Part shown: in pieces, positions 32,939 through 49,089 of the stretch | Layout: each line of letters opens with the position of its first letter | Position numbering within the stretch: the first letter of the stretch is position 1 | Assembly: GCF_039852015.1 (NCBI RefSeq) | Contig: NZ_CP156626.1 | Coordinates: forward strand, 3,320,249-3,384,248 | Direction: 5' to 3' | Length of the DNA stretch: 64,000 nucleotides | Source: Robbsia sp. KACC 23696 | Lineage (GTDB): Bacteria; Pseudomonadota; Gammaproteobacteria; Burkholderiales; Burkholderiaceae | Notes under the pieces: model-generated | Told to the model about the DNA's origin: nothing | Databases searched by the model: none | What the model saw: only the letters and a program-made list of their open reading frames with translations | Position numbers and translations under genes: made by a program

Positions 32939-33555
32939 GACAGCAACTCCTCGATCTGGGCAACCGCCGCCTTCGTGACCAGAACGTTCTTGAAATAGAT
33001 CAGCGACAGCGGGTCGGCATAACGCGGCTCGACAATAGCGACGCCAGGCAAGTTACGCGATGCCAGGTACAGGTTCTCGTCCAGCTCATCGGTGATGATC
33101 AGAACGGATTCCAGACCCAGGCTCTTGAACTTGGCTGCGAGCAGCTTCGTCTTCGGGGCTTCCAGCGCGATCGGCTCGATCACGGACAGGCGGCCTTCAC
33201 GAACCAGTTGCGAGTAGATCGACGAGATGCCCGCACGGAACATCTTCTTGTTGACCTTCTGCGTGAAGTTTTCTTCGGGCGAATTCGGGAAAATCCGACC
33301 ACCCCCACGCCACAGCGGGCTGGAGCGCATACCGGCACGAGCATTACCCGTACCCTTCTGGCGCCACGGCTTCTTCGTGGAGTGATTGACTTGCTCACGA
33401 TCCTTCTGTGCGCGGTTACCGCTACGTGCATTCGCTTGGTAAGCGACGACGATTTGGTGAATCAGCGCTTCGTTGTAATCGCGACCGAAAACGGCGTCCG
33501 ACGCATTCACTGCCTCGCCCGCTTGACCTTGCTCATTCAGGAGCTTCAGTTCCAT
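32935..33555 (-). CDS. rplD: 50S ribosomal protein L4
   Basis: Tunnel-constriction protein and, in enterics, autogenous repressor of the S10 operon. The 206 residues show [20 protein letters not shown] and [20 protein letters not shown]. Here the S10 operon head is split off, so any L4 feedback would have to act on a leader before rplC rather than before rpsJ. Confidence 0.99.
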
Positions 33556-33557
33556 GA

Positions 33558-34220
33558 TCAGGCTCCTTGCGCGACAGTAACGCGCGCCTTCACTGCCGGC
33601 GTCACGAACACGACGCCGTTCTTCGCGCCCGGCACTGCGCCGCGGACGAAGATCAGCTTGCGATCGGCATCGATACGCGCGATCTGCAGGTTTTGCGTGG
33701 TGGTGGTGACATCACCCAGATGACCAGTCATCCGCTTACCCGGGAACACACGACCCGGATCCTGCGCCATACCGATCGAGCCCGGCACATTGTGCGAACG
33801 CGAGTTACCGTGTGATGCACGGCCGGATGCGAAGTTGTAGCGCTTGATGGTACCGGCATAGCCCTTACCGATCGACACGCCCTGCACGTCGACCTTTTGG
33901 CCGTCCGCGAACAGGTCGACATCGACCACAGCACCCAGTGCCAGCGAAGCTGCACGCTCCACGTCGACACGGAATTCCTTCAGGACGACGCCCGGCTCAA
34001 CACCGGCTTTGGCCAGATGACCAGCTTCCGGCTTCGTCACGCGCGAGCGGCGACGATCGCCGTACGTCAACTGGACCGCGGTGTAGCCATCGGTTTCCAG
34101 CGTCTTGATCTGCGTTACACGGTTGTTCGACACGTCCAGCACGGTGACAGGAATCGAATCCCCATCAGCCGTAAAGATACGGGTCATCCCAACCTTGCGA
34201 CCCACGAGTCCAAGGCTCAT
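33558..34220 (-). CDS. rplC: 50S ribosomal protein L3
   Basis: Early-assembly 50S protein. The 220 residues start [20 protein letters not shown] and contain [14 protein letters not shown] with the glutamine region ([13 protein letters not shown]) methylated by PrmB in E. coli. The ATG has GGAG seven bases upstream. In most bacteria rpsJ is directly upstream; here the next gene upstream is an FAD oxidoreductase, and rplC appears to be the first gene of its own transcript. Confidence 0.99.
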
Positions 34221-34402
34221 TGTTTTCTCCATTCCCGACTGCGATTGGCCGGGGCTTAAATACACCCAAAAGGGTGCGAAATCTCAGCGGAAAACGCCCA
34301 CACACCCCTTAATCAGGCGGTAGGCTTGGCGCGAATTTCCTGATCACTTTCCGCTGGAAGCGGCGTTTGAACAGAAAATCAAATCGTCATAACGACGAAA
34401 AG
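34221..34402 (-). other. Predicted rplC mRNA leader
   Basis: About 180 nt between the predicted transcription start and the rplC ATG. Small hairpins are visible: CACCC-tttt-GGGTG near 34263-34276, CCGCT/GCGG near 34351-34363, and ATCAGG/CCTGAT pairing across about 30 nt. It has no open frame. It may stand in for the S10 leader, but no L4 site could be recognised by eye. Confidence 0.4.
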
Positions 34403-34408
34403 CTCATC

Positions 34409-34437
34409 ACTATACCCTAGGGAAATAGGGTGTGCAA
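34409..34437 (-). promoter_or_regulatory. Promoter of the rplC-rpsQ unit
   Basis: On the minus strand TTGCAC, 17-base spacer, TATAGT, a near-consensus sigma70 promoter. It is placed between the oxidoreductase stop and rplC and would supply the separated remainder of the S10 operon. The rest of this 326-bp gap contains a run of ten C residues (34524-34533). Confidence 0.82.
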
Positions 34438-34546
34438 GCCATCTATCTGATCGGGAAGGATAAATGCGGGTGTCGTTGCAGAAAGACATCGTGCGCCCGG
34501 GGAGCATCGGCCGAACGCCGGCGCCCCCCCCCCTCGGGCTGAGCCG

Positions 34547-36154
34547 TCAGGTCAGATGGGCGGCCAGTGCTTCGGCGACCTTGATGCCGTCGATCGCGGC
34601 CGAGTAGATGCCGCCCGCATAGCCGGCGCCCTCGCCGGCCGGGTAAAGGCCTTTGACGTTGATGCTTTCGTAGGCATCGTTACGACGCACGCGGATCGGC
34701 GAGGACGTCCGCGTTTCGACCCCAGTCAGAATCGCGTCGGCCATCGCGAACCCGGGCAATTTCTTGTCGATTTGCGGCAATGCCTCGCGGATCGCCTCGA
34801 TGACGTAATCGGGGAGCGCGGTGCTCAGATCGGTCAGATTCACGCCCGGCTTATACGACGGTTCCACGCTGCCCAGTTTCGTCGACGGACGACGCGCCAG
34901 AAAATCCCCGACCCGCTGCGCCGGGGCGCGGTAGTCCCGGCCTCCCAATTCGAAGGCACGCGCCTCCCATTGGCGCTGGAAGGCAATGCCCGCCAGCGGA
35001 CCACCGGGGAAATCTTCCGGGGTAATGCCGACGACGATGCCTGCGTTCGCATTCCGTTCGTTGCGCGAATACTGGCTCATGCCATTGGTGACGACGCGAC
35101 CAGGCTCCGACGCCGCGGCGACAACGGTGCCGCCCGGGCACATACAGAAACTGTAGACCGCGCGCCCATTGCTGCAATGATGCACGACCTTGTAATCGGC
35201 CGCGCCCAGCAGTTTATGGCCGGCGAAACTGCCGAATTGACTGCGATCGATCACGCCCTGCGGATGCTCGATACGGAATCCCAGCGAAAACGGCTTCGAC
35301 TCCATGAAAACGCCCCGACCATGGAGCATTTCGAAGGTATCGCGCGCGCTGTGTCCGACCGACAAGACGACGTGATCGCAGCGTAGCGTCTCGCCGGTGG
35401 ACAGCACCAAACCGCGCACGACGCCGTCCTCGATCTGAATATCGTCGACACGCGATTCGAAACGGACCTCGCCACCCAAAGCGTGAATCGTCGCGCGCAT
35501 CTTCTCGACCATGCTCACCAGGCGGAAGGTGCCGATGTGCGGACGGCTCAGAAACAGGATGTCTTCCGGCGCGCCGGCCAGCACGAATTCCTCGAGGACC
35601 TTGCGTCCGTAGAATTTCGGATCCTTGATCTGGCTGTAGAGCTTGCCGTCGGAGAAGGTGCCGGCACCACCCTCGCCGAACTGCACGTTCGATTCGGGGT
35701 GGAGGACGTTCTTCCGCCACAGGCCCCAGGTGTCCTTCGTCCGCTCGCGAACCGCCTTGCCCCGCTCCAGGATGATCGGGCGAAAGCCCATCTGCGCCAG
35801 GATCAGACCGGCGAACAGTCCGCACGGGCCCATCCCGATAACGACCGGGCGTAACGCCACGCTGTCCGGCGCGGCCTTCGCGACGAATTTGTAGCGCATA
35901 TCGGGCGTCACGACGACGTGCGGCTGATCTTTCAGATGCTGCAGCGCGGCGGCCTCGTGCTTGATATCGACGTCGACGATATAGGTCAACTTGATATCGG
36001 AGCGCTTACGCGCGTCATGCGCACGTCGATACACCGTGTAGCGAAGCAGGTCTTCCGGGGGAACGTGAAGCGCGGCAAGTCGCGCGTGAATCGCCGACGC
36101 GAGTGCGTCTTCGGTGTGGTCAAGCGGAAGCTTGATTTCACTGATTCGTAACAT
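34547..36154 (-). CDS. FAD-dependent oxidoreductase (uncharacterised dehydrogenase family)
   Basis: A 535-residue soluble flavoprotein. An N-terminal domain of about 95 residues (MLRISEIKLPLDHTEDAL) precedes a Rossmann motif VVIGMGPCGLFAG (105-117) and the ILERGK acidic strand end. FGEGGAGTFSDGKLYSQIKD is typical of this bacterial FAD-dehydrogenase family, and a C-terminal GLYPAGEGAGYAGGI motif completes the FAD site. The substrate is unknown; the family resembles geranylgeranyl-reductase/HI0933-like enzymes at low similarity. The ATG was chosen for homology at MLRISE; upstream codons are an unrelated extension. It lies between rplC and the divergent outer-membrane gene, within the stretch that splits the S10 operon. 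Confidence 0.85.
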   Translation of the reverse strand: MLRISEIKLPLDHTEDALASAIHARLAALHVPPEDLLRYTVYRRAHDARKRSDIKLTYIVDVDIKHEAAALQHLKDQPHVVVTPDMRYKFVAKAAPDSVALRPVVIGMGPCGLFAGLILAQMGFRPIILERGKAVRERTKDTWGLWRKNVLHPESNVQFGEGGAGTFSDGKLYSQIKDPKFYGRKVLEEFVLAGAPEDILFLSRPHIGTFRLVSMVEKMRATIHALGGEVRFESRVDDIQIEDGVVRGLVLSTGETLRCDHVVLSVGHSARDTFEMLHGRGVFMESKPFSLGFRIEHPQGVIDRSQFGSFAGHKLLGAADYKVVHHCSNGRAVYSFCMCPGGTVVAAASEPGRVVTNGMSQYSRNERNANAGIVVGITPEDFPGGPLAGIAFQRQWEARAFELGGRDYRAPAQRVGDFLARRPSTKLGSVEPSYKPGVNLTDLSTALPDYVIEAIREALPQIDKKLPGFAMADAILTGVETRTSSPIRVRRNDAYESINVKGLYPAGEGAGYAGGIYSAAIDGIKVAEALAAHLT

Positions 36155-36483
36155 GATGGTCCATTTGCAGAGGGCGCTTTTTATCCGCCAAAGCGCGATT
36201 TTACCGCGCAAATCGAGGCTGAGACAGCGCCTTGCGCCGGTGCTTGCGTGGCAATCACCCAACAGGCGTGGCCGCCCCGCTCCCTTCGCCGCCATCGACC
36301 AAACCCACGCACGCTCTTTCGAAGCGGCCGCCAGCCTCCGGGCAAGTGAGATCGTTCAAGCATGTCTTTCGGACCGATCCGATCGTCCGCCATCGTGCCC
36401 CTAGGTACTTTGAGCGGGGGGCGTAGACAGCTCGGTGCGTCCCATTCCCGAGATGTCTTTCGTTCGATCATCGGAGCAGCACT
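36155..36483. other. Divergent spacer between oxidoreductase and beta-barrel gene
   Basis: No credible gene. On the minus strand TAAAAT (near 36199-36204) could be a -10 box for the oxidoreductase, without a good -35. On the plus strand the only clear signal is CGGAG eight bases before the next ATG. Confidence 0.4.
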
Positions 36484-37245
36484 ATGCCCTCTCTTCCCGC
36501 CCTGAGCGCCCCGCCTTTATTCGACCACGACACGCGCGGTCATCGGCGCGCCGTCGCTTCCCAGCCCCGCCGTGCCGCCAGCCTCAAGGCGCGACCGCGC
36601 CGGCACGCTGCGACGGCAGCGTTGTTCTGCATGGCGTCGCTATTGGCTGCGGCCCCCGTTTCGGCCGCCACGAAAGGGTTTTATATTCAAGCCGACGGGA
36701 CGCTGTCGATTGGCGCGAGCCAGGTTTCCATGGCCAATCGACTCGTCGGCAGTGGCGGCGGCAACACGGTGTTCAGCTTGGCCAATGACGGCCGCTTCGG
36801 CTATGGCGCGGCGGTCGGCTATATGTTCGACCGCGCCGGCGTACGGCTACGTTATCTGGCGCTCGGCACACAGCCGACGCTCGCAATCGATGGACAAACC
36901 AATGTCAGCCGCTCCGGGGTTGCGTCGCGCTTCCTCGGTGTCGAAGGGATGTATCTGTTTCCGATCATCCCGAAGCGCGTGGACCTGGCGCTGATCGGCG
37001 GCGCCGGCGTGATGAGAACGACGGTGACATTCCCGACAAGCAACCATACCGGGCGTCGCGGAACCGGTACGCAATACGAGCCCGTCATCTCGCTCGGCGT
37101 CGGCCTCCGCGTTCCGTTTTCTCGACATTTTTCCGGGGGTGTCGAAGTCAGCAGGCTCACACCGTTCCAAAGTGGCTTGCGCGCACGCGGCCTATATAAC
37201 AACGGCCAGACGGTCGTCTCAGCCGGGATCGGCTACGTGTTCTAG
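36484..37245 (+). CDS. Small outer-membrane beta-barrel protein
   Basis: A 253-residue protein with a signal sequence (hydrophobic core about 42-57, cleavage near PVSAA-TKG). It is followed by alternating amphipathic strands (GYGAAVGYMFDRAGVRLRYL; SLGVGLRVPFSRHFSGGVEV) and ends in Phe (SAGIGYVF), the BAM recognition signature. The size fits an eight-stranded OmpA/OmpX/OmpW-like barrel; no specific family is recognised. The signal peptide has an unusually long, arginine-rich N-region of about 40 residues. It is the only plus-strand gene in this part of the window and ends tail to tail with the next gene, sharing a CTAG that gives a TAG stop on both strands. Confidence 0.75.
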   Translation: MPSLPALSAPPLFDHDTRGHRRAVASQPRRAASLKARPRRHAATAALFCMASLLAAAPVSAATKGFYIQADGTLSIGASQVSMANRLVGSGGGNTVFSLANDGRFGYGAAVGYMFDRAGVRLRYLALGTQPTLAIDGQTNVSRSGVASRFLGVEGMYLFPIIPKRVDLALIGGAGVMRTTVTFPTSNHTGRRGTGTQYEPVISLGVGLRVPFSRHFSGGVEVSRLTPFQSGLRARGLYNNGQTVVSAGIGYVF

Positions 37246-39317
37246 TCAGGCCCGATGTCCGCGCCATGTGGCGGGCCGGCTGCGAGGATTGCCTGTAACA
37301 GACGCTCCCCTAACTGCTGCTCCGATCGTTGTTGCAGACCCTGCACCCAGGTGACGAGGGTTCGCTTCGCGGCGCCGGCGTTCAGGAGGTCAACGAGCGG
37401 GATACCAGCGCGCAGATACGCGCGGGCGACGCGCAACGCCTTGTCACCACGCGTCAGCGCGGCTTCATCGGCATCGTCCGGATGCCAGCGCGGGCGCCCT
37501 GCCAGAAGCAGTCGAAACGCTTCTGGCAACACTTGTCCGGACCGTGCCGGACGCCATCCCTGACCCGCGGTGTCGATATCGTCGCTCTGCCGCGTCAACA
37601 CGTCTTGAAGCAAGGCCATTACCGCGAGTCGCGTGAAACGATGCACCCCTTCCATGCTGTGAACCTGGGCGCCATGCGCCCTTGACTCTGCCAGCCGCGC
37701 CTGGCGATGCAGGTAATGCGGCCCTTGGGCGACGCGTCGCAGCACCGCGCGCGCCGCCCATGTCAGCTCGTCGGGAATCGATGCCGCGGAACCGATATGC
37801 GCCAGCATTCGGACCTCCGGCAATCCGACGACCGCGCTTTGCCACACGGCGTTGATCGCGACGTCTTCGTCGGTGGTCAAGTTCGCCGATCGCATCGGCG
37901 AGCCTGGCGGCGCGTTGTCGACATGATCGAGCAGTTTCTCGCCATATCGTCTTTCATAGTGACGCTGCATCACCCCGGCCCATCGCCGGAAATTGTCAGG
38001 CGCGCCGCCGTAGCGGGTAAATGCGGCGGCCAATACAGCCGAGCGCAGATACATCCTCGCCAATATGAGCACCGCGTCGACATTCCCGCCGCGGGGTCCG
38101 TCGCCCCAATCAAGCGTAGACAAGCGACGACCGGCAAGATAAGCCGCCGTTTCCGCCGGGACGGCATCACGCCCGGGATTCGGACGCCAGGGCACTTGGG
38201 GGTTCGTGCTGGCAGCGGGTTCGATATCACCGTCTTTTCTCAGAAGGATGTCCTTGATCAAATGCAAGCATGCAAGCTGAGAAAACGGATCGGCCACATA
38301 GGTCTGCCGCCGACGCATGACATTGACCCAGTCATACGCGTGGACCGGGGGCGACGGCTGACCGGCCTGCGCATAAGCCAAATGCCGGAGCACATCGGTC
38401 GCAGCGGACGCGATCGCGGAGGGTATCGCCGCCGCGGTGGCGATATGCGCCAAGATCCGAAGCTCTGCGGTTGCGACCGGCACATCGATCAGCAAGGTAT
38501 TCATGAACGAAACATCCACGCGCGTCGCCGGAATGATGAAGCGCATCAGGTCACGCGATCGTTCTGCGTCGCTTGCGGCGGCCATGTCTTCCAGCGCATC
38601 GAAGACGGCCGTGGTCCCATTCGGGTCGAGAAATTCCTGCGGGTCCCGGCGACCGCTCGACAGCATCCGCTCGATCACTACGGTCGGCGCCCAATCGGCC
38701 CAGTCTGCCACTGTCACCTTGGCCGCGTTCGGTGCTAACGCCGCGTCAGTCACGACAGCGTCGCGCCCTTCCGTCACGCTCCGTCGCACGCGTTTGCGCA
38801 TCGGCGACCGGCTCTCCGTGTCGCTCACCTGAATGACTTCCGGCTCCCGCTGCCTTTGGAAATGTGCCAGTACTTCGATCTCAGGCGAATCGACGCGCGG
38901 CGGCTCGCCATCGGCAAGCGCGTCGAGAAGCGACGCCGCACTTGCATCGTCGAGAAAGCACTTCGGATCGCCGGCATGGATCGACGCCATTTGATCGATG
39001 ATCGCCGTAGGCACCCGATCCGCCAGCGCATCGGTCATGACACGACAGGGCGCCCCGGAGGAGCGCAAGGCGTCGAATAGGATCGGCGCGCTGCCTGCGG
39101 CGGATGACACCGCGTCGCAACGTCGGGATTCCCTGCTCGACCGGCGCGCAATCTCCAAGCCGCCTGATATATCGGCAACTCTCCGAGCTGAGGCGTCCTC
39201 TTGCACGGTATCGCGCGCGATGACGTCATCCTGACACCCAGATCCTGCTTCGCGCGTCGGCAAGTTCGAGTGCATCGTGTGCTCAATGGTCTGTTCGATC
39301 AGGTGTTGGAAATTCAC
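37242..39317 (-). CDS. Unknown protein, paralog B of a tandem pair with two internal modules
   Basis: A 691-residue protein that I do not recognise. Two copies of a module of about 190 residues are visible, one in the middle and one at the C-terminus. Shared motifs are ELRILAHIATAAAIP / EVRMLAHIGSAASIP, DPFSQLACLHLIKDIL / HRFTRLAVMALLQDVL, an I-A-R-M-Y/V-A-R-A-Y-L-R-A segment, and RRWAGVMQRHYERRYGEKLL / VTWVQGLQQRSEQQLGERLL. The N-terminal 250 residues hold a second duplicated motif of about 38 residues (PTAIIDQM..DP..FLD / PTVVIERM..DP.EFLD) and a basic patch (MRKRVRRS). It has no signal peptide or membrane segment; predicted mostly helical. The start is GTG with AGAGGG upstream, chosen because it aligns with the start of the neighbouring paralog. 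Confidence 0.8.
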   Translation of the reverse strand: MNFQHLIEQTIEHTMHSNLPTREAGSGCQDDVIARDTVQEDASARRVADISGGLEIARRSSRESRRCDAVSSAAGSAPILFDALRSSGAPCRVMTDALADRVPTAIIDQMASIHAGDPKCFLDDASAASLLDALADGEPPRVDSPEIEVLAHFQRQREPEVIQVSDTESRSPMRKRVRRSVTEGRDAVVTDAALAPNAAKVTVADWADWAPTVVIERMLSSGRRDPQEFLDPNGTTAVFDALEDMAAASDAERSRDLMRFIIPATRVDVSFMNTLLIDVPVATAELRILAHIATAAAIPSAIASAATDVLRHLAYAQAGQPSPPVHAYDWVNVMRRRQTYVADPFSQLACLHLIKDILLRKDGDIEPAASTNPQVPWRPNPGRDAVPAETAAYLAGRRLSTLDWGDGPRGGNVDAVLILARMYLRSAVLAAAFTRYGGAPDNFRRWAGVMQRHYERRYGEKLLDHVDNAPPGSPMRSANLTTDEDVAINAVWQSAVVGLPEVRMLAHIGSAASIPDELTWAARAVLRRVAQGPHYLHRQARLAESRAHGAQVHSMEGVHRFTRLAVMALLQDVLTRQSDDIDTAGQGWRPARSGQVLPEAFRLLLAGRPRWHPDDADEAALTRGDKALRVARAYLRAGIPLVDLLNAGAAKRTLVTWVQGLQQRSEQQLGERLLQAILAAGPPHGADIGPD

Positions 39318-39572
39318 TGCCCTCTCACCCATATAGTAAGGAATACGATCTATTACTCGCGCCCATCTCCAGTCACTGTGCGCGCTGACGCCCATGGCAC
39401 GCCAGAACGGCTAGGTGCATGTTTTGTGCCGCCCTTGACCGCGTCCGTAACGTGCGCAACGCCGAAAGGGAGCCCGGTCTTATGGCGATAGCATACGGTT
39501 TACCCGGGTCCCAGCCTATTAGCCCATTCGGCGGATGGGGCCTGACGCGGGGTTAGCGCCGCAGCGGGAACG

Positions 39573-41525
39573 CTAGCCGATCCTGTCCTGCAGACGGATC
39601 CGGCTAAGCATCCCGACCATCCGTTCACCCAGGCGTCGCTCCGCCTGATGCTGCAGCGCAAGCGTCCAGGTGATGATGCTCCGCTTCGCAGCGCCCGCCG
39701 CCACGACATCGACAAGCGGAATGCCCGCGCGGAAATACATCCTGGCGACGCGATTCCCGCGCTCCTCCAGCGCCCTGTATCGCGCGGGACCGTTCAAATT
39801 GTCGTGCCCGCTCGGTTCGTCCAGAAGTGCCCGGAATGCCGCGGGAAATGAAACGCCTCGGTTTGTCGAACGCCAGCCCTCTCCCGCTGGGTCGATATCG
39901 TCACGCCGGCGCGTCATCAGATCCTTGATCAAGGCGATCGCCGCGAGGCGCGTGAAGCGTTCCTCGCCAGCGCGGCTGCGGACCGTCGTGGCGCGTGTTC
40001 GGACCTCCGCGCGTCGCGCTTGCGAATGCAGGATATGCCGGCTTCCCGCGAGCCGCCGAAGGACTGCACGCGCCGCCCACGTAACCTCATCCGGCACCGA
40101 CGCAACGGAGCCGATATGCATCAGCAGACGGATCTCCGCAAACCCCACCGGCACGCTCTCCAAAAGGACATCCATCGCCGATTCTTCGTCCACGGCGCTG
40201 ACCGCCGAGGACACTGCGGCTTCTTCTCCACCTGCCTCCCGCTGCGGCAGCGACACCGACAGCGGCTCTCCACCGGTTTCGGTCGGCGTAAAGATCGATC
40301 TGGGCGCTCTATCGCTCATTGCTGCCGTCTGCGGCGCGGGGAGAAAGCGGGGCGGAACAAGCGCGAGATGCTGCAGTAATACGTCGCCATACCGTTGTTC
40401 ATAGTGGCGCAGCAGTACGCCGCACCAGCGCCTGACGTTGTCGGTCACGCTACTGTGCTCTGAAAAGGCGCTCGCGCGAACAGCCGATCGCAAATACATC
40501 CTCGCAATTTCCCGTTCCGTCTTCGGGTCACGGACGCGCGCATTATGCCCCCACCCCGATGTCGTCACGCTGCGGGAGCCGAGGTAGTGTCGCGTCGCTT
40601 CCGGGAGCACGTAACGCTCGGGATTCGGGCACCAAGGGAGATCGGGATACACGCTTGGGGCCGGCTCGATGTCACCGGCCTCCCGGATTAGAATGTCGCG
40701 GAGCAAATGCAAACCCGCCAGGCGCGAAAACGACTGATCCTCCCCATCATGCCGATTTCTTTCGCCGCCGATCCAGCGATAGACGCGCCCCGCTAACGTG
40801 CCGCGCTCGTCGGGCGTGGACGCCAAGTATCGGAGTACCGACACCGCTGCCGCGCCTATCGGCGCCGGGATGGCCGATGCCGTGGCAATATGCGCCAATA
40901 TGCGGCATTCCGACGTCTCGATCGTCACATCGCGCAATAAGACCTCGATGAACTCCGCCTCGCTTCGCTGCGCCGGCACGACAAACCGGCTCAAGTCCGT
41001 CGTCCGCTGCGCCTCGGTCGACGGATGGGGGTGATCGGCCTCGTCGAGTACAAGCGTCCCCCCACGTTGCTCGGACGCCGCGCCGGGGTTCGCCCGCGCC
41101 AATCGGCTGCGCATCTCCTGTAACCAGCTGAAGTGCGGCTCGCGCGCAACGATGACGCCCTGCGGGCGAATCCGGAATTCACCGATGATCTGCACCTCAG
41201 GGGACACGGATGGTAACGGTCTCGCCTGATCTGGGTCGGGGGCGCGCAACGATGTCGACGGGACCGGCTGCGCACTCGCGGTAGACGCCCGCAACGACGA
41301 TCCCGCGCCGGAATCGCAGGTATGTGAGCGATGTGAGCGCTTGGTGCCGCGGCGCGCCGCTTGCAATCCATCCGAGACGGTTGCCGCATGTTGCCGCGCT
41401 GCCGCGGACTGCGACCCGGCGTGCGGTGACGCGTCGGACCGAGCCGACGCGCCGACATCCCCACCCGATATATTGGGGCCTGTCGCGCGATTCGCGCTTA
41501 AATCGTTCAGGCGCTGGAAAGGCAT
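39573..41525 (-). CDS. Unknown protein, paralog A of a tandem pair with two internal modules
   Basis: A 650-residue protein related along most of its length to the next gene downstream, from which it is separated by 255 bp. The N-terminal 110 residues are Ser/Ala/Arg-rich and look disordered. Module 1 (about 195-388) and module 2 (about 452-642) share ECRILAHIATASAIP / EIRLLMHIGSVASVP, FSRLAGLHLLRDIL / FTRLAAIALIKDLM, DIEPA / DIDPA, IARMYLRSAV / VARMYFRAGI, and RRWCGVLLRHYEQRYGDVLL / ITWTLALQHQAERRLGERMV. No enzyme motif, signal peptide or membrane helix is visible. The disordered, serine-rich head would suit a secreted effector, but that is only a guess. The ATG follows GGGAG by seven bases. 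Confidence 0.8.
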   Translation of the reverse strand: MPFQRLNDLSANRATGPNISGGDVGASARSDASPHAGSQSAAARQHAATVSDGLQAARRGTKRSHRSHTCDSGAGSSLRASTASAQPVPSTSLRAPDPDQARPLPSVSPEVQIIGEFRIRPQGVIVAREPHFSWLQEMRSRLARANPGAASEQRGGTLVLDEADHPHPSTEAQRTTDLSRFVVPAQRSEAEFIEVLLRDVTIETSECRILAHIATASAIPAPIGAAAVSVLRYLASTPDERGTLAGRVYRWIGGERNRHDGEDQSFSRLAGLHLLRDILIREAGDIEPAPSVYPDLPWCPNPERYVLPEATRHYLGSRSVTTSGWGHNARVRDPKTEREIARMYLRSAVRASAFSEHSSVTDNVRRWCGVLLRHYEQRYGDVLLQHLALVPPRFLPAPQTAAMSDRAPRSIFTPTETGGEPLSVSLPQREAGGEEAAVSSAVSAVDEESAMDVLLESVPVGFAEIRLLMHIGSVASVPDEVTWAARAVLRRLAGSRHILHSQARRAEVRTRATTVRSRAGEERFTRLAAIALIKDLMTRRRDDIDPAGEGWRSTNRGVSFPAAFRALLDEPSGHDNLNGPARYRALEERGNRVARMYFRAGIPLVDVVAAGAAKRSIITWTLALQHQAERRLGERMVGMLSRIRLQDRIG

Positions 41526-41665
41526 CAACCGTCTCCCGACAATATTTAGGAATGCGATTGATCAATGTGTTTATGCCTACATCATACGAGCCACGACGGA
41601 TCGCGCCTATAAGCCGTTCGGTACGATCCGGGCATAGGATGCCGACACTGCTCGGCCCGATCCGC

Positions 41666-41698
41666 AAAAAAAAACCGACCTCGAAAGGTCGGTTTTTT
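41666..41698. terminator. Bidirectional terminator between paralog A and rpsJ
   Basis: AAACCGACCT, loop CGAA, AGGTCGGTTT, with A and T runs on the two flanks. On the minus strand it has a ten-pair stem and a UUCG-type loop followed by T9. It ends the str-rpsJ transcript 62 bp after the rpsJ stop, so rplC cannot be served by simple read-through. Confidence 0.88.
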
Positions 41699-41759
41699 CT
41701 GACGCAGCCCGCGCGACCGTCATGTCACGGTCGCGCCAGACTTGCCTGATCTTACGCGA

Positions 41760-42077
41760 TCAGGATGCCTTCAGCGTGATGTCCACGTGGCAGCCAGCAG
41801 CCAGATCGAGCTTCATCAGCGCGTCGACCGTCTTTTCGGTCGGCTCGATGATGTCGATCAGACGCTTGTGCGTACGGATTTCGAACTGATCGCGCGAGGT
41901 CTTGTTCACGTGCGGCGAACGCAGAACGTCGAAACGCTCGATGCCCGTCGGCAGCGGTACCGGACCACGAACGAGTGCACCCGTGCGCTTTGCCGTTTCA
42001 ACGATTTCGAGCGCCGACTGATCGATCAGACGGTAGTCGAATGCCTTCAGGCGAATACGGATGTTTTGGCTTGCCAT
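41760..42077 (-). CDS. rpsJ: 30S ribosomal protein S10
   Basis: Head protein that also acts as NusE in antitermination. The 105 residues ([40 protein letters not shown]) are normal. It stays 252 bp behind tuf but, unusually, is followed by a terminator and not by rplC. Confidence 0.99.
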
Positions 42078-42329
42078 GATGTTTCCCTAAAGAACGAGGC
42101 GGCTGGATCCGCCATCAAAATAAAGAGCGAAGGATCGCGCGGCAAGTCCCTCGGGACTGACGCGCGCCATCCGAAATATACAGCAGCACCTGCCGCCGCG
42201 CCGCTTGCCCACGTCCGGACGGGGGAAATCGGTGTCGAAACAACACACCCATCGACAACGGCACGGCGGCGGTGTCGCGGAAGGTCGGACGGGGAAACCG
42301 CCCAACCCGCACTCCGCTCGGTACGGCTA

Positions 42330-43520
42330 TTACTTCGTGATCGTCGCCACAACGCCGGCGCCGACGGTACGGCCGCCTTCGCGGATTGCGAAACGCAGAC
42401 CTTCTTCCATCGCGATCGGAGCGATCAACTTCACCGAGATCGACACGTTGTCGCCCGGCATGACCATTTCCTTACCTTCCGGCAGCGAAATCGAGCCCGT
42501 CACGTCCGTCGTACGGAAGTAGAACTGCGGACGGTAGTTGTTGAAGAACGGCGTGTGACGGCCGCCTTCGTCCTTGCTCAACACGTACACTTCTGCCGTG
42601 AAGTCCGTGTGCGGCTTGATCGAGCCCGGCTTCGCCAGAACTTGACCGCGCTGCACGTCTTCGCGCTTCGTACCACGCACCAGCACGCCAACGTTGTCGC
42701 CTGCTTGACCTTGGTCCAGCAGCTTGCGGAACATTTCAACGCCCGTCACCGTCGTCTTTTGCGTATCGCGCAGACCAACGATTTCGACTTCTTCGCCAAC
42801 CTTGATGATGCCGCGCTCAACACGACCCGTCACCACCGTACCGCGACCCGAGATCGAGAACACGTCTTCCACCGGCATCAGGAACGTACCGTCAATCGCA
42901 CGCTCCGGTTGCGGGATGTACGTGTCCAGCGCTTCTGCCAATGCCAGAATCGCCACTTCGCCCAGCTCGCCCGTGTCGCCTTCCAGCGCCAGCTTTGCCG
43001 AACCCTTGATGATCGGCGTGTCGTCGCCCGGGAAGTCGTACTTCGAGAGCAACTCGCGCACTTCCATTTCCACCAGCTCGAGCAGCTCGGCGTCGTCAAC
43101 CATGTCTGCCTTGTTCAGGAAGACGATGATGTACGGCACGCCAACCTGACGCGACAGCAGAATGTGCTCACGCGTTTGCGGCATCGGACCGTCCGCGGCC
43201 GAACACACCAGGATCGCGCCGTCCATCTGCGCTGCGCCCGTGATCATGTTCTTCACGTAGTCGGCGTGGCCCGGGCAGTCAACGTGTGCGTAGTGGCGGT
43301 TAGCCGTTTCGTACTCGACGTGCGCCGTGTTGATCGTGATACCACGTGCCTTTTCTTCCGGTGCCGCGTCGATCTGGTCGTAGGCCTTCGCCTCACCACC
43401 AAACTTCTTCGACAGAACCGTTGCAATCGCCGCCGTCAGCGTCGTCTTGCCGTGGTCAACGTGACCGATCGTGCCCACGTTCACGTGCGGCTTGGTACGT
43501 TCAAACTTGCCTTTAGCCAT
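42330..43520 (-). CDS. tuf: Elongation factor Tu
   Basis: GTPase that delivers aminoacyl-tRNA. The 396 residues contain the P-loop [22 protein letters not shown], the guanine-binding NKADMVDD and the domain 2-3 motifs ([24 protein letters not shown]-like [10 protein letters not shown]). A second tuf near nusG is usual in the group but lies outside the window. The plus-strand frame opposite it is a codon-bias shadow. Confidence 0.99.
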
Positions 43521-43645
43521 GTCAGTATGCTTTCAAAAAAGGATCAATATTCGGGATCTGCGCTGCCGGGCCGCCAGCTTTTCGCCCGGCCCGACAGCAC
43601 GTCCGCGCACCCGTACTCACGAATGCGCGGTGAGTCGTTTTTTGC

Positions 43646-45748
43646 TTACTTGCCCTTCGCGGCGACAATCGCCTCGACGACGTTCTTCGGTGCTTCCGCG
43701 TAGTGCTTGAACTCCATCGTGTACGTCGCACGACCTTGAGTCGCCGAACGCAACGACGTGGAGTAACCAAACATTTCCGACAGCGGCACTTCAGCCTTGA
43801 TCTGCTTACCACCGCCGACCATGTCGTCCATGCCTTGCAGCATACCGCGACGCGACGACAAGTCGCCCATCACGTTACCGGCATAGTCTTCCGGCGTTTC
43901 GACTTCGACCGCCATCATCGGCTCGAGCAGCACCGGGCTCGCCTTGCGCATCGCTTCCTTGAAGGCCATCGAACCAGCCATCCGGAACGCGTTTTCGTTC
44001 GAGTCCACATCGTGGTACGAACCGAACACGAGGCGCACCTTCACGTCTTCCACCGGGTAGCCTGCAACCACACCCGCCTTCAACGTGTCCTGGATACCCT
44101 TATCGACTGCCGGGATGAATTCACGGGGCACCACACCGCCCTTGATTTCGTCCAGGAACTCGTAGCCCTTGCCTTGTTCGTTCGGCTCGAGCGTGATGAC
44201 GACGTGGCCGTACTGACCACGACCGCCCGACTGCTTGACGAACTTGCCGTCCACGTCCGCGGCGATCTTGCGGATCGTTTCGCGGTACGCGACCTGCGGC
44301 TTACCCACCGTCGCTTCGACGTTGAACTCGCGCTTCATCCGGTCGACCAGAATTTCCAGGTGCAGCTCGCCCATACCCGAAATAATGGTTTGACCCGATT
44401 CTTCGTCGGTCTTCACGCGGAACGACGGATCTTCTTGTGCCAGACGGTTCAGCGCCAGGCCCATCTTTTCCTGGTCGGCCTTCGTCTTCGGCTCGACTGC
44501 CTGCGAAATCACCGGCTCCGGGAAAACCATGCGTTCGAGCACGATGATCGCGTTCGGATCGCACAGCGTATCGCCCGTCGTCACGGCCTTCAGGCCAACG
44601 GCAGCGGCGATGTCGCCCGCGCGCACTTCCTTGATTTCTTCGCGCTGATTCGCGTGCATCTGCAGAATCCGGCCCAGACGTTCCTTCTGCTCCTTAACGG
44701 AGTTATAGACGGTGTCGCCTGCGTTGACCAGACCCGAATACACGCGGAAGAACGCCAGCTGACCGACGAACGGGTCCGTCATGATCTTGAAGGCGAGCGC
44801 CGAGAACTTCTCTTCGTCCGATGCTTCACGCGTCGTCGGCTCGTCGTTTTCGAGCAAGCCCTTGACCGGCGGAATGTCGACCGGCGACGGCATGTAGTCG
44901 ATGACGGCATCCAGCATCGCCTGCACGCCCTTGTTCTTGAACGCCGTACCGCACATCATCGGGACGATTTCGCCGGCGATGGTACGCGTACGCAGCGAGA
45001 GCATCAGCTCGGCTTCGGACAGCGTGCCTTCTTCCAGGTACTTGTTCATCAGGTCTTCCGACGCTTCAGCAGCGGCTTCGACCATCTTCTCGCGCCATTC
45101 GTCGGCAACGCCTTGCAGCTCGGCCGGAATGTCCTTGTATTCGAACTTCGTGCCTTGTGCGGCGTCATCCCACACGATGGCCTTCATCTTCACCAGGTCG
45201 ATCACGCCTTGGAAGTTTTCTTCCGCGCCGATAGGTACCTGGATAGGAATCGGGTTCGCCTTCAGGCGGGTACGCATCTGCTCGTACACCTTGAAGAAGT
45301 TCGCGCCGGTACGGTCCATCTTGTTGACGAACGCGAGACGGGGCACGTTGTACTTGTTCGCCTGACGCCACACCGTTTCCGACTGCGGCTGCACGCCGCC
45401 GACTGCACAGTAGACCATGCAGGCGCCGTCGAGCACGCGCATCGAGCGTTCGACTTCGATCGTGAAGTCGACGTGGCCCGGGGTGTCGATGATGTTGATC
45501 CGGTGTTCCGGATAGTTGCCGCCCATGCCCTTCCAGAAGGCGGTGGTCGCAGCGGAGGTGATGGTGATGCCGCGCTCTTGCTCTTGCGCCATCCAGTCCA
45601 TCGTTGCGGCGCCGTCGTGCACTTCGCCAATCTTGTGATTGACGCCGGTGTAGAACAGGATCCGTTCGGTGGTGGTCGTCTTGCCAGCATCGATGTGAGC
45701 GCTGATGCCGATATTGCGGTAGCGCTCGATGGGTGTCTTGCGTGCCAC
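43646..45748 (-). CDS. fusA: Elongation factor G
   Basis: Translocase GTPase, 700 residues, with [50 protein letters not shown] and the domain IV/V region ([14 protein letters not shown]). Start is GTG with AGAGGA upstream. It lies 193 bp behind rpsG and 125 bp before tuf, the str operon order. Many Burkholderia have a second fusA elsewhere. Confidence 0.99.
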
Positions 45749-45941
45749 GGTTATCCTCTATCTCTCTGGTAACGCGGAAAAAAGGGCTGACAGGTTGTCA
45801 TCTGACCGACATTTTCCCGCGCGCCCTAACACAAACGGGCGAGGCGCATTCGCGCTCCCGCCCGGAGTACGCCGACATACCGGCTGACTGCTCCTGGGCG
45901 TCTCCGGCTTTCCAGCCGGTCGCCGCGGAACAGCTGCGGCA

Positions 45942-46412
45942 TTAGAAGCGGAAGTGCGAGAACGCCTTGTTCGCTTCCGCCATGCGGTGCACTTCGTCGC
46001 GCTTCTTCATTGCAGCGCCACGGCCTTCAGCCGCTTCTTGCAATTCGCCAGCCAGACGCAGCGCCATCGACTTCTCGCTACGCTTCTTAGCCGCTTCACG
46101 CAGCCAACGCATGGCCAACGCCATACGGCGCGACGGACGCACTTCAACCGGCACCTGGTAGTTTGCACCACCGACGCGACGGCTCTTCACTTCAACCACC
46201 GGCTTCACGTTGTTCATGGCAGTCGTGAAGACTTCCAGAGGGTCCTTGCCGCCCTTCGTCTGGATTTGCTCGAACGCGCCGTACACGATGCGCTCAGCAA
46301 CTGCCTTTTTACCGTCCAACATCAGGACGTTCATGAATTTGGTGACATCGACATTGCCGAACTTCGGATCCGGCAACACTTCCCGCTTGGGGACTTCGCG
46401 ACGACGTGGCAT
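45942..46412 (-). CDS. rpsG: 30S ribosomal protein S7
   Basis: Head-assembly protein that contacts E-site tRNA; translational repressor of str in E. coli. The 156 residues ([38 protein letters not shown]-type helix [19 protein letters not shown]) are standard. An AGAGGA site precedes the ATG. Confidence 0.99.
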
Positions 46413-46642
46413 TTCTTTCCTCTAACCTTTTCAGTTCGGGCCGTCATAAAGACTTACCCGGGTTGCACCAACGGAGGATCTCGACATTGAGACCACATGC
46501 CCGGGGCAACACTTACTCAACAGTTGGCGACCTGCGCGTCTCAATCGACGTCTAGGACCGTCACTGCAGCGGACGTGCCGCAGACACTGACTCCAACCAA
46601 CGCTCACCGGAGTATTCCGGCCTGCGCGACGGCAATCAGGTC

Positions 46643-47020
46643 TTACTTGTTCTTCGGACGCTTTGCGCCGTACTTCGAACGCGACTGCTTACGATCCTTG
46701 ACGCCCTGGGTATCCAGCGAGCCACGAACCATGTGGTAACGCACACCTGGCAAGTCCTTGACCCGGCCGCCGCGAATCAGCACGACCGAGTGTTCCTGCA
46801 GGTTGTGGCCTTCACCACCGATATACGAAATGACTTCGAAGCCGTTCGTCAGACGAACCTTCGCAACCTTACGCAGTGCGGAGTTAGGCTTCTTCGGCGT
46901 GGTCGTGTACACACGAGTGCACACGCCGCGACGTTGGGGGCAGTCCTGCAAGGCCGGGCTCTTGCTCTTCACGACTTCTGAAGTACGGGCCTTGCGAACC
47001 AATTGATTAATGGTTGGCAT
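46643..47020 (-). CDS. rpsL: 30S ribosomal protein S12
   Basis: Decoding-site protein of 125 residues ([20 protein letters not shown]). The lysines at the streptomycin positions ([10 protein letters not shown] and GRVKDLPG) are the sensitive wild-type forms. The ATG was chosen by homology; the frame continues 19 codons upstream without similarity. It is the first gene of the str operon behind a clear promoter. Confidence 0.99.
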
Positions 47021-47105
47021 GTTTTTCCTGCGGAAAAGTGTTTCTGTCGATGTCTGTGGCCGGGCAAGCGGCCACATTCCATTTTTAGCAAACGGAACCC
47101 AGGAT

Positions 47106-47133
47106 TCTATACCGGGTTAACAGAAAAGCGCAA
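47106..47133 (-). promoter_or_regulatory. str operon promoter (before rpsL)
   Basis: On the minus strand TTGCGC, 16-base spacer, TATAGA. The leader of about 80 nt contains a six-pair hairpin (GTGGCC, eight-base loop, GGCCAC; 47056-47075). It lies just after the amidase stop, so the str genes do not depend on rpoC read-through. Confidence 0.75.
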
Positions 47134-47183
47134 GTTTGGCAATCATTTGCATGGGGTGGATGCGGGAACCATGCCACATTTTG

Positions 47184-48842
47184 TCAGCAGGAGGCGAGAT
47201 ACCGGGGCACTTGCCGTTGCATGCCTGCCCGCCGGAGCACCTGCTCCAGCGCGTAAGCGAGCCCGAGCAGCGCCGGTTCACCGAAAGGTTTTGCCGTAAA
47301 AACAACACGTTCTGGCATCTTCGTCGTCGACGAGGGCCAGTAGGGCAGCGTCAGTTGCGGATAACCGATCGCGGCCGCCAGCGTACCCCAGCTGTCGTTC
47401 GGACCGTTTGAGACGATTGCGTCGAGACGGAGTTCGCCCAGCAAGCCGTCGAGGATCGCGCGCGCGACTCCATCATTATATCGATGCTGCGCGACGTACT
47501 CTGGGGTCGTCAGGCCGCTGCTCGCCTCGGCCTCCTCGAATAGCCGCTGATCGTGCCGATCCAGCCGTTCGGCGGGCGTACGGACGTTGAAGGCGATCAG
47601 GTCGGCGAGCGTCCGTACCGCCCCGGCCGGCGCACGGTCCGCGATCGGTCGGCGACTCGCCAGATACGTCGCGATGGCTTCCTTGAACTCGTAACGCAGC
47701 GTCGTCCCGATATCGAACATGCGTACCTCGTCCTCGGCAGGCAAAGACGCCAGCGCCCGCTGATGCAACGCCTCGATCCGCGTCGAGTCGATCTCCACGA
47801 GACGTGCGCCGGCCCCCGTCACGTGCGCGGCGATAGACGGGGGAAGCGGGGCATCGGCGGCCACGCCAATCACGGCACCGCGCAGCCCGTTCGGATCGAG
47901 GAAGACGCGATAGTCGGCAGGCCGCTTGCCGGCGCGCTGCGTCGCGCTATCCCGCGCGTCGATGCCGGCGATGGCACCGAGCAAGATCGCGGCATCCTCG
48001 ACCGTCCGCGCCATCGGGCCGACGCTGTCCATGACCGCGCTTATCGGAATCACACCGGCACGACTCGTCAGCCCGACCGTCGGCTTGAGCCCCACGATAC
48101 CACTGACCGCGGCCGGAGACAGGATTGAGCCGGAGGTCTCCGTGCCCAGGAACGCCGCAGCAAGATTGGCCGATACGGCGACCGCAGAGCCCGCGCTCGA
48201 CCCCATCGGATCGGCATCGAGGCAATAGGGATTCAACGTGGCGCCGCCACGCGCGCTCCAACCGCTCCGGCTCCTGCCGCCCTCGGCGCTGCCGGAACGA
48301 TAATTAGACCACTCGCTCAGATTGGCCTTGCCCAACAGGATGGCGCCGGCCTCCCGCAACCGCCGCGCGACCTCCGCGTCTCGCGCGGGCCGCGAGTCCA
48401 GTAGCGCCAGGGAACCGGCAGTCGTCGCCATCCTGTCATCGGTGTCGATATTGTCTTTCAGCAGCAGCGGAATGCCATGCAGCGGCCCGCGTGGGCCCTT
48501 GCGACGTCGCTCGGCGTCAAGCGCGTCAGCGATCGCCAGCGCATCCGGATTCGTTTCGATGATCGACGACAAGGTCGGCCCGCTCTTGTCGATTGCGGCA
48601 ATGCGATCGAGATACGCCAGCACCACGCTGCGCGCGCTAAAGGTTCCGCGCGTCATGCCTTGCTGCAGTGAGGCGATCGACGCCTCGACGATCTGCGCAT
48701 CACGCAGCTTCGGCGGCGTTTTGCTGCCGGCGCCGCACGCAGACAGCAATCCCGTCGTGGCGCCTGCCACGACCGTTCCCGCAAAAGGAACCGCCGCCAA
48801 CGCACCCAAAACATGCCTGCGCGGCCAAGCGATTTTATGCAT
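47184..48842 (-). CDS. Exported amidase (amidase-signature family)
   Basis: A 552-residue amidase with the Ser-cisSer-Lys triad: Lys129 (LLLKDNID), cis-Ser in GSSAGSA (214-220) and nucleophile Ser239 in GTETSGSI. The middle Ala replaces the usual Gly of GSSGGS. The N-terminus combines a twin-arginine-like motif (PRRHVLG, Arg8-Arg9), a hydrophobic core and a lipobox-like LSAC (Cys36), so it is probably a Tat-exported protein, perhaps a lipoprotein. The substrate is unknown; peptide amides and aryl-amides are typical for the family, and GatA is unlikely because it is exported. It is between recQ and the str promoter and looks like an accessory insertion. Confidence 0.88.
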   Translation of the reverse strand: MHKIAWPRRHVLGALAAVPFAGTVVAGATTGLLSACGAGSKTPPKLRDAQIVEASIASLQQGMTRGTFSARSVVLAYLDRIAAIDKSGPTLSSIIETNPDALAIADALDAERRRKGPRGPLHGIPLLLKDNIDTDDRMATTAGSLALLDSRPARDAEVARRLREAGAILLGKANLSEWSNYRSGSAEGGRSRSGWSARGGATLNPYCLDADPMGSSAGSAVAVSANLAAAFLGTETSGSILSPAAVSGIVGLKPTVGLTSRAGVIPISAVMDSVGPMARTVEDAAILLGAIAGIDARDSATQRAGKRPADYRVFLDPNGLRGAVIGVAADAPLPPSIAAHVTGAGARLVEIDSTRIEALHQRALASLPAEDEVRMFDIGTTLRYEFKEAIATYLASRRPIADRAPAGAVRTLADLIAFNVRTPAERLDRHDQRLFEEAEASSGLTTPEYVAQHRYNDGVARAILDGLLGELRLDAIVSNGPNDSWGTLAAAIGYPQLTLPYWPSSTTKMPERVVFTAKPFGEPALLGLAYALEQVLRRAGMQRQVPRYLASC

Positions 48843-49089
48843 TTTTCATCTGCACTCCATATCAACAAAAGCGAAATGAGTCAGCGTTTTGCTGTCTCGC
48901 CACCTGATCATTGATGTGAAGCACCGGAAGCACAATGCGTCGCCGGGACAAGTTGCTCGGTTTCAGACGGGTCAGATCTCCACTAGCCCAATCGCCCAGC
49001 GCGGCGATGCATCGGCGCACCGCCGGCGGCTCACGCGACCTTCGCGTCGCGATGCCGAATACCGCCCGAACGTACCGCTTCCTCGCTTT

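Follow-up and report, generated by a model that had tools for sequence, protein, structure and literature searches.

A conserved hairpin upstream of rplC and recurrent insertions between rpsJ and rplC in Burkholderiaceae: evidence for a candidate ribosomal leader

Introduction

In Escherichia coli, the rpsJ and rplC genes of the S10 operon are located 32 bp apart and the operon is preceded by a leader RNA. According to PMC10931766, the L4 site belongs to a long, structured leader with attenuation that precedes rpsJ; the same review reports no conservation of this site in Pseudomonas. Ribosomal leaders (r-leaders) of other organisms were compiled by Eckert and Weinberg (2020; PMC7247131) as conserved, covarying RNA structures located directly 5' of ribosomal protein genes. 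The rows of Table 1 of that paper include a leader of L2 in Alphaproteobacteria and one of L4 (rplC, rplD...) in Archaeoglobi, and no leader before rplC in Beta- or Gammaproteobacteria appears among the rows listed; 35 leader types were known before that survey. PMC2704228, PMC9935924 and PMC9687910 were consulted as well.

The locus described here belongs to a member of the Burkholderiaceae and lies in a window of 64,000 nucleotides, this being the whole stretch of DNA that was analysed. It shares with the E. coli S10 operon the genes from rplC on, a (putative) leader RNA before the operon and the L4 gene in second place of the rplC unit. It differs in the distance between rpsJ and rplC, which amounts to 7,539 bp, and in the element itself: unlike the long E. 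coli leader before rpsJ, with its multiple hairpins and attenuator, that of the window is a single short hairpin before rplC and does not correspond to an L4/S10 leader of the E. coli type. A different site in this lineage would fit with the lack of conservation of the E. coli L4 site in Pseudomonas that PMC10931766 reports. A literature search in main texts retrieved no earlier report of an rplC leader hairpin, which is apparently undescribed, a judgement made apart from the list of the 35 earlier leader types.

Organization of the rpsJ-rplC interval

The ribosomal genes of the window are encoded on the minus strand in the order rpsL-rpsG-fusA-tuf-rpsJ and, after the 7,539 bp measured in the ORF reading of the window, rplC-rplD-rplW-rplB-rpsS-rplV-rpsC-rplP-rpmC-rpsQ-rplN onward, so that the contiguous arrangement with rplC directly after rpsJ is not found at this locus. 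Gene names beyond those searched with profiles come from our reading of the protein sequences. From rpsJ to rplC, the features are:

41760..42077, minus strand: rpsJ (S10), last gene of the rpsL-rpsG-fusA-tuf-rpsJ run and sole PF00338 (Ribosomal_S10) match in the genome
41666..41698 (33 nt), minus strand: terminator-like hairpin 3' of rpsJ, A6-CCGACC-TTTCGA-GGTCGG-T9, perhaps bidirectional (sequence and a script of our own)
39573..41525, minus strand: orphan paralog 1, ATG at 41525 (start in the ORF list, TTG at 41528), with two copies of a domain of ~200 aa
37242..39395, minus strand: orphan paralog 2, alternative GTG start at 39317, with the same ~200-aa domain twice
36484..37245, plus strand: outer-membrane beta-barrel-like (OMP-like) gene, with weak profile matches and a homolog in the equivalent place in the congener G001
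34547..36154, minus strand: FAD-dependent protein of 535 aa, ATG at 36154 (PF21688, E 1.2e-83)
34409..34437, minus strand: promoter-like site of the rplC unit, TTGCAC-17-TATAGT, starting ~217 nt 5' of the rplC ATG
34234..34253, minus strand: candidate rplC leader hairpin, CCCGGC-CAATCGCA-GTCGGG, loop at 34240-34247 (conservation and covariation)
34227..34230, minus strand: Shine-Dalgarno GGAG, 3 nt after the hairpin (sequence)
33558..34220, minus strand: rplC (L3), ATG at 34220, first gene of the proposed new unit (ORF and RplC match)

An earlier, sequence-only reading of this DNA had proposed that rpsJ and rplC are split by ~7.5 kb of unrelated genes, namely an FAD protein, an OMP gene on the opposite strand and two paralogs, and that rpsJ, behind tuf, is followed by a terminator. 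This description agrees with the measured distance, with the presence of all four genes in the interval and with the 33-nt hairpin in the sequence behind rpsJ. The assignment of the OMP-like gene is based on a weak match to TIGR04565 (E 6.5e-5) and, for the G001 copy, on a weak match to PF13505, both below the cut-off.

A covarying hairpin with a fixed loop precedes rplC

The hairpin at rplC consists of 6 bp and a nearly invariant loop, CAAUCGNA, and is located 3 nt before the Shine-Dalgarno site. In all 91 extracted loci (30 distinct 56-mers) AGCCCCGGCCAATCGCAGTCGGGAATGGAG or a variant of it occurs directly 5' of the rplC start, and four loci missed by the extraction script all matched the model later. 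The loop CAATCGYA is found in each of the 30 distinct sequences, a set that was not chosen by its loop. In an ungapped alignment of 18 sequences selected by us from these 30, 99.1% of the cells were paired, 16 cells were doubly changed compared to 3.4 in shuffles (reached by 0 of 500), and the covariation score was 0.406 compared to 0.192 in shuffles (again 0 of 500) and to at most 0.071 in slid controls. Two coarser measures were less clear: 40 of 500 shuffles reached the 3 pairs changed on both sides, and 18 of 500 reached the 8 further pair types. When the alignment was widened to 45 sequences, in a version fitted to the model and therefore leaning towards it, double changes were present at all six pairs. 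In a loop-anchored set of 48 distinct hairpins from 133 sequences, all selected through the loop pattern, with a minimum of 4 bp as an additional condition for 16 of them, positions 1-5 pair in 48/48 and position 6 in 44/48. The first property by which r-leaders are recognized, a conserved RNA secondary structure supported by covariation, was thus observed.

Searches against Rfam 15 (E up to 1) with window positions 33000-49000 and eight related loci gave no match to the hairpin, and the two sub-threshold matches obtained in that part of the window are both away from it. Two other readings of the element were considered. A coding extension of RplC through the hairpin was rejected since the loop contains an in-frame TAG in 5 of the 18 aligned sequences. 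Regarding mimicry of rRNA, a convincing case was not found: the E. coli 23S rRNA contains CAACCGAG near nt 225, closed by 3 bp, a resemblance equalled by 365 of 2000 shuffles and kept as a lead only. As a separate observation, in the predicted fold of window positions 34190-34420 (minus strand) the Shine-Dalgarno stretch GGAGAAAAC is paired with a GUUUUCC located ~65 nt upstream; as neither segment varies among the three congeners, this pairing is beyond the reach of covariation.

The hairpin might instead be passive, acting as an mRNA stabilizer or as a spacer by which the Shine-Dalgarno site stays open, in agreement with its location directly before that site and with the fact that its ligand is so far putative. 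A passive hairpin, however, needs no fixed loop, yet the loop is kept in 30/30 sequences while the stem covaries, and the structure persists even at loci where rpsJ and rplC are only ~46 nt apart (L071, L099). A passive role is therefore regarded as unlikely. A protein-binding operator would be expected to show such a position and to combine a fixed loop with a stem that varies freely, and the hairpin is a candidate ribosomal leader, its most likely role as judged from sequence comparison.

Distribution of the hairpin

Of the 145 family genomes in which RplC was detected, 138, split ones included, matched model R1 of the hairpin at the start of rplC, 14 of these matches being weaker than E 0.01. 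The seven genomes without a match at rplC were five with a size of 0.2-0.5 Mb, G003 (whose contig starts at rplC) and G093; the latter has a single match of E 0.32, at a place outside the matches listed, which extend to about E 0.19. Among those listed, R1 matches away from rplC were weak (best E 0.008) except for one in G085, a genome in which RplC was not found. The hairpin is present in the three genomes of the window's genus, and in two genomes of the group g21 (L014, L015, L016) it is still located at rplC despite a separation from rpsJ by 32 kb or by strand.

At the level of the order, model R1 had a match in 50 of 120 genomes at E 1, and 25 of 30 fetched loci lay beside an rpsJ and/or rplC match, while the other five, which did not, had E values of 0.005-0.09. 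Together with the 138 of 145 in the family, these loci display the second property of r-leaders, a consistent location upstream of ribosomal protein genes. Model R2, the alignment of which includes many of the R1 order loci, matched 113 of 200 genomes of the order at E 0.1, the element being absent or diverged in the 87 others; 29 of its best 30 loci were beside rpsJ and/or rplC, L156 being the exception.

In the class, which we take to be Gammaproteobacteria in the taxonomy used, model R2 had a match in 14 of 274 genomes, and of 13 class loci fetched five were near rpsJ and eight were not. A further class sample had PF00297 in 125 of 143 genomes and the rplC start located in 111 of 126 loci. 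Leaving out the window's own locus and that of E. coli, the loop occurred within 90 nt upstream of rplC in 18 of 109 loci and was not found in 91. At least 4 flanking base pairs were present in 16 of these 18, compared to 0.05 per shuffle round and 0 on the reverse strand, with a loop pattern that was set after the R2 hits had been seen and with three of the 16 (L234, L240, L250) belonging to those hits. In E. coli, the region 5' of rplC contains no hairpin of this kind. Among 299 genomes of the phylum, all matches below E 0.03 belonged to the order, and five genomes had weaker matches. The hairpin is thus nearly universal in Burkholderiaceae, common in Burkholderiales and scattered in other families of the class.

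A seam between two putative transcription units

Inspection of 30 loci revealed that at split loci the terminator-like hairpin stays with rpsJ and the sequence 5' of rplC stays with rplC. The rpsJ terminator of the window, nearly identical in the congener locus L005, is omitted by a standard terminator scan, perhaps because the stem extends into the T tract (our guess), and is recovered by our own script. A sub-threshold Rfam match to RNAI (window 41667-41742, minus strand; 28.4 bits vs a cut-off of 47) overlaps this terminator and is probably due to chance.

Terminators and promoters were counted by rules of our own in a scan that leaves out g21; among the split Cupriavidus loci, L012 and L075 apparently represent one genome. 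A terminator 3' of rpsJ was detected at the split loci of Cupriavidus (13/13), g7 (1/1) and the window's genus (2/3; at the third locus a long hairpin with a T tail is visible that was missed by the rule), and at the unsplit loci of Ralstonia (5/5, four named and one assigned by us) and g3/Cupriavidus (1/2). The counts were 5/14 in a mixed set, mainly Oxalobacteraceae, 0/4 by rule in Pandoraea (L034 has one by eye) and 0/49 in the Burkholderia clade. Promoter-like sites 5' of rplC were detected in the split Cupriavidus (13/13), g7 (1/1), the window's genus (3/3), Ralstonia (5/5), the unsplit g3/Cupriavidus loci (2/2), the mixed set (10/14), Pandoraea (4/4) and the Burkholderia clade (48/49). 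In shuffled controls, terminators arose at a rate of 0.006 in split intervals and 0 in Burkholderia-clade intervals, and promoters at 0.29 in the latter, so that the promoter-like sites, which are weak consensus matches, are weak evidence when taken singly. The TATAGT -10 element of the site ~217 nt 5' of the rplC ATG is present in 3/3 congeners, all of which keep the promoter region although the DNA upstream differs. A TTCG-N16-TTCG box was found at chance level in the window and was absent from the insert.

Splits are seen where a terminator separates rpsJ and rplC, and there are none in the 49 Burkholderia-clade loci without a terminator, a correlation that involves few lineages. Since the seam lies between the terminator-like hairpin of rpsJ and the promoter-like site and conserved leader hairpin of rplC, the insertion probably cut no transcription unit. 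The proposal of the sequence-only reading that rplC opens a new unit gains the promoter-like site and the leader hairpin as sequence-level support, and its assumption that ribosomal supply was kept intact is plausible, as the putative promoter, the ~180-nt leader and the hairpin stayed with rplC.

Insertions at the seam in Burkholderiaceae

A single set of 150 family genomes was searched for both RpsJ and RplC, and 146 of them had at least one match. Among 140 pairs on the same contig and strand, the gap was at most 600 bp in 128 and exceeded 600 bp in 12, comprising 3/3 in g1 (the window's genus), 7/13 in g3, which we identified as Cupriavidus, 1/1 in g7 and 1/4 of the same-strand pairs in g21. 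Further cases were one opposite-strand pair (g21), three pairs on different contigs (g9 twice, g19 once) and two genomes without one of the matches; in two g21 genomes rpsJ and rplC are either 32 kb apart or on opposite strands. In named relatives (best 80 loci of 577) the pair was present in 79 and split in six of these, all Cupriavidus. The insert of the Cupriavidus locus L012 encodes a dienelactone hydrolase, an SDR, a StyA-like monooxygenase and a flavin reductase (Pfam); other Cupriavidus inserts (L093 and L101 left out) are alike or shorter as judged by their ORFs, and that of g7 encodes molybdopterin oxidoreductase subunits. The styrene-monooxygenase-like interval of Cupriavidus resembles that of the window in being an insertion at the same seam with the rpsJ terminator and the rplC leader kept, and differs in its cargo. 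The split is therefore an insertion relative to the usual family order, neither unique to the window's genome nor family-wide. The view that it represents a rare event in a conserved operon holds as to conservation and has to be amended as to rarity, given its recurrence in all three genomes of the window's genus, in part of Cupriavidus (g3), in g7 and in g21; the possibility raised along with it, that the split order is ancestral throughout the family, is not borne out in Burkholderiaceae, where 128 of 140 pairs stay close.

Within the genus, the window's genome (3 contigs, 98.34% complete) was compared with G001 and G002. G001 contains rpsJ, the OMP gene (58% aa identity), the FAD gene (92% aa identity) and rplC in the same order as the window, with rpsJ and rplC 3.1 kb apart. 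G002 is also split, by 4.0 kb carrying an unknown 583-aa protein and an amidase; it has no FAD or OMP gene at the locus, which leaves a single ancestral insertion for the genus no more than possible, and its FAD matches are fragments located close to both ends of a different contig. The FAD and OMP genes are thus common to two species, and the paralogs represent a further layer. The amidase of the G002 interval is 40-44% identical to one encoded directly upstream of rpsL in the window (47184-48842). In addition, G002 carries a gene of 499 aa in antisense between rpsQ and rplN (L006:14271-15770, minus strand), with weak, sub-threshold LRR and F-box-like matches; the rpsQ-rplN gap is ~2.77 kb in G002 vs ~0.4 kb in the window and G001, and with this gene the boundaries of ribosomal operons in G002 carry a second insertion.

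The two paralogs share 260 of 717 aligned positions (BLASTP), and each consists of two copies of one ~200-aa domain, modelled as mostly helical in paralog 1, indicating duplication at two levels; by eye, the upstream regions of both genes look alike. No convincing match was found for them in Pfam, NCBIfam, PADLOC and PHROGs or, for paralog 1, among PDB sequences, and a contig search, possibly excluding the own genome, found no close relatives of paralog 1. AlphaFold models of a single domain, for which the four internal copies served as the alignment, reached a pLDDT of 73.7 in the best of five and 51-58 in the others, and in Foldseek the modelled domain had no PDB match that reached E 0.001.

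The presence of these orphan paralogs only in the window's genome among three congeners, the other cargo of G002 at the same seam and the higher GC of the insert (~0.60-0.69 vs ~0.55-0.63 in the flanking ribosomal genes, which are a poor yardstick) would be compatible with a mobile element or genomic island that hit an intact operon, the rplC promoter having come with the insert or arisen later. Yet the usual marks of such islands were not found: the window contains no tRNA, the four insert products include no integrase or transposase families, and 0 of the 20 direct-repeat families listed (44 in total) flank the insert. As unsplit relatives already possess a promoter-like site and a leader 5' of rplC, we consider this origin very improbable. 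A misassembly that links rpsJ and rplC to unrelated DNA, the other objection raised by the sequence-only reading, is very unlikely, above all in the FAD/OMP part of the interval, because, although several contigs of the family set start just before rpsJ, the genome is assembled in 3 contigs and the FAD and OMP genes recur in G001 in the same order between rpsJ and rplC. Duplicated tuf genes may break assemblies, and contig starts before rpsJ would be expected in that case.

Proposed role of the leader and concluding remarks

Altogether, it is likely that one explanation accounts for both the split and the hairpin, namely that rpsJ ends the str unit and rplC heads a separate S10 unit, insertions occurring at the boundary. 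In the family, the str unit would comprise rpsL-rpsG-fusA-tuf-rpsJ, and rplC would be the first gene of an S10 unit preceded by a promoter and a leader RNA of its own. As the gap between rpsJ and rplC would be an operon boundary, unrelated genes could be inserted at low cost, and insertions have occurred there several times with different genes. In the window's genus, the FAD and OMP genes would have entered before the window's species and G001 parted, and the two paralogs would have been added, or kept, only in the window's species.

The hairpin is probably the operator of the S10 operon, with L4 or L3 as putative ligand. A free ribosomal protein of the operon, either of these two, would bind the hairpin and block the translation of rplC, and the block would extend to the rest of the operon by coupling. 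L4 is suggested by analogy with E. coli, L3, the product of the first gene, being the alternative. According to PMC7247131, the best-guess ligand of a leader before several ribosomal protein genes is a protein already established as leader ligand elsewhere, an argument that favours L4 in this operon. The start and end of transcription, the protein ligand and the repression are steps that we infer from the sequence. On balance, we lean towards the hypothesis that the hairpin represents a hitherto undescribed operator through which an S10 unit led by rplC is autogenously controlled. This operator would be of ancient origin in the beta/gamma lineage, its place having been taken in the relatives of E. 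coli by the L4 leader 5' of rpsJ, and it would make the junction an insertion-tolerant regulatory seam.

The leader, strong as an RNA structure and a candidate as a regulator, is a more valuable result than the split. The control of the S10 operon outside E. coli-like gammaproteobacteria seems largely open, and the fixed-loop hairpin provides a concrete site to test. The seam, in turn, offers a reason why a very conserved gene order would be broken repeatedly at one point, as the break would fall between two regulatory units.
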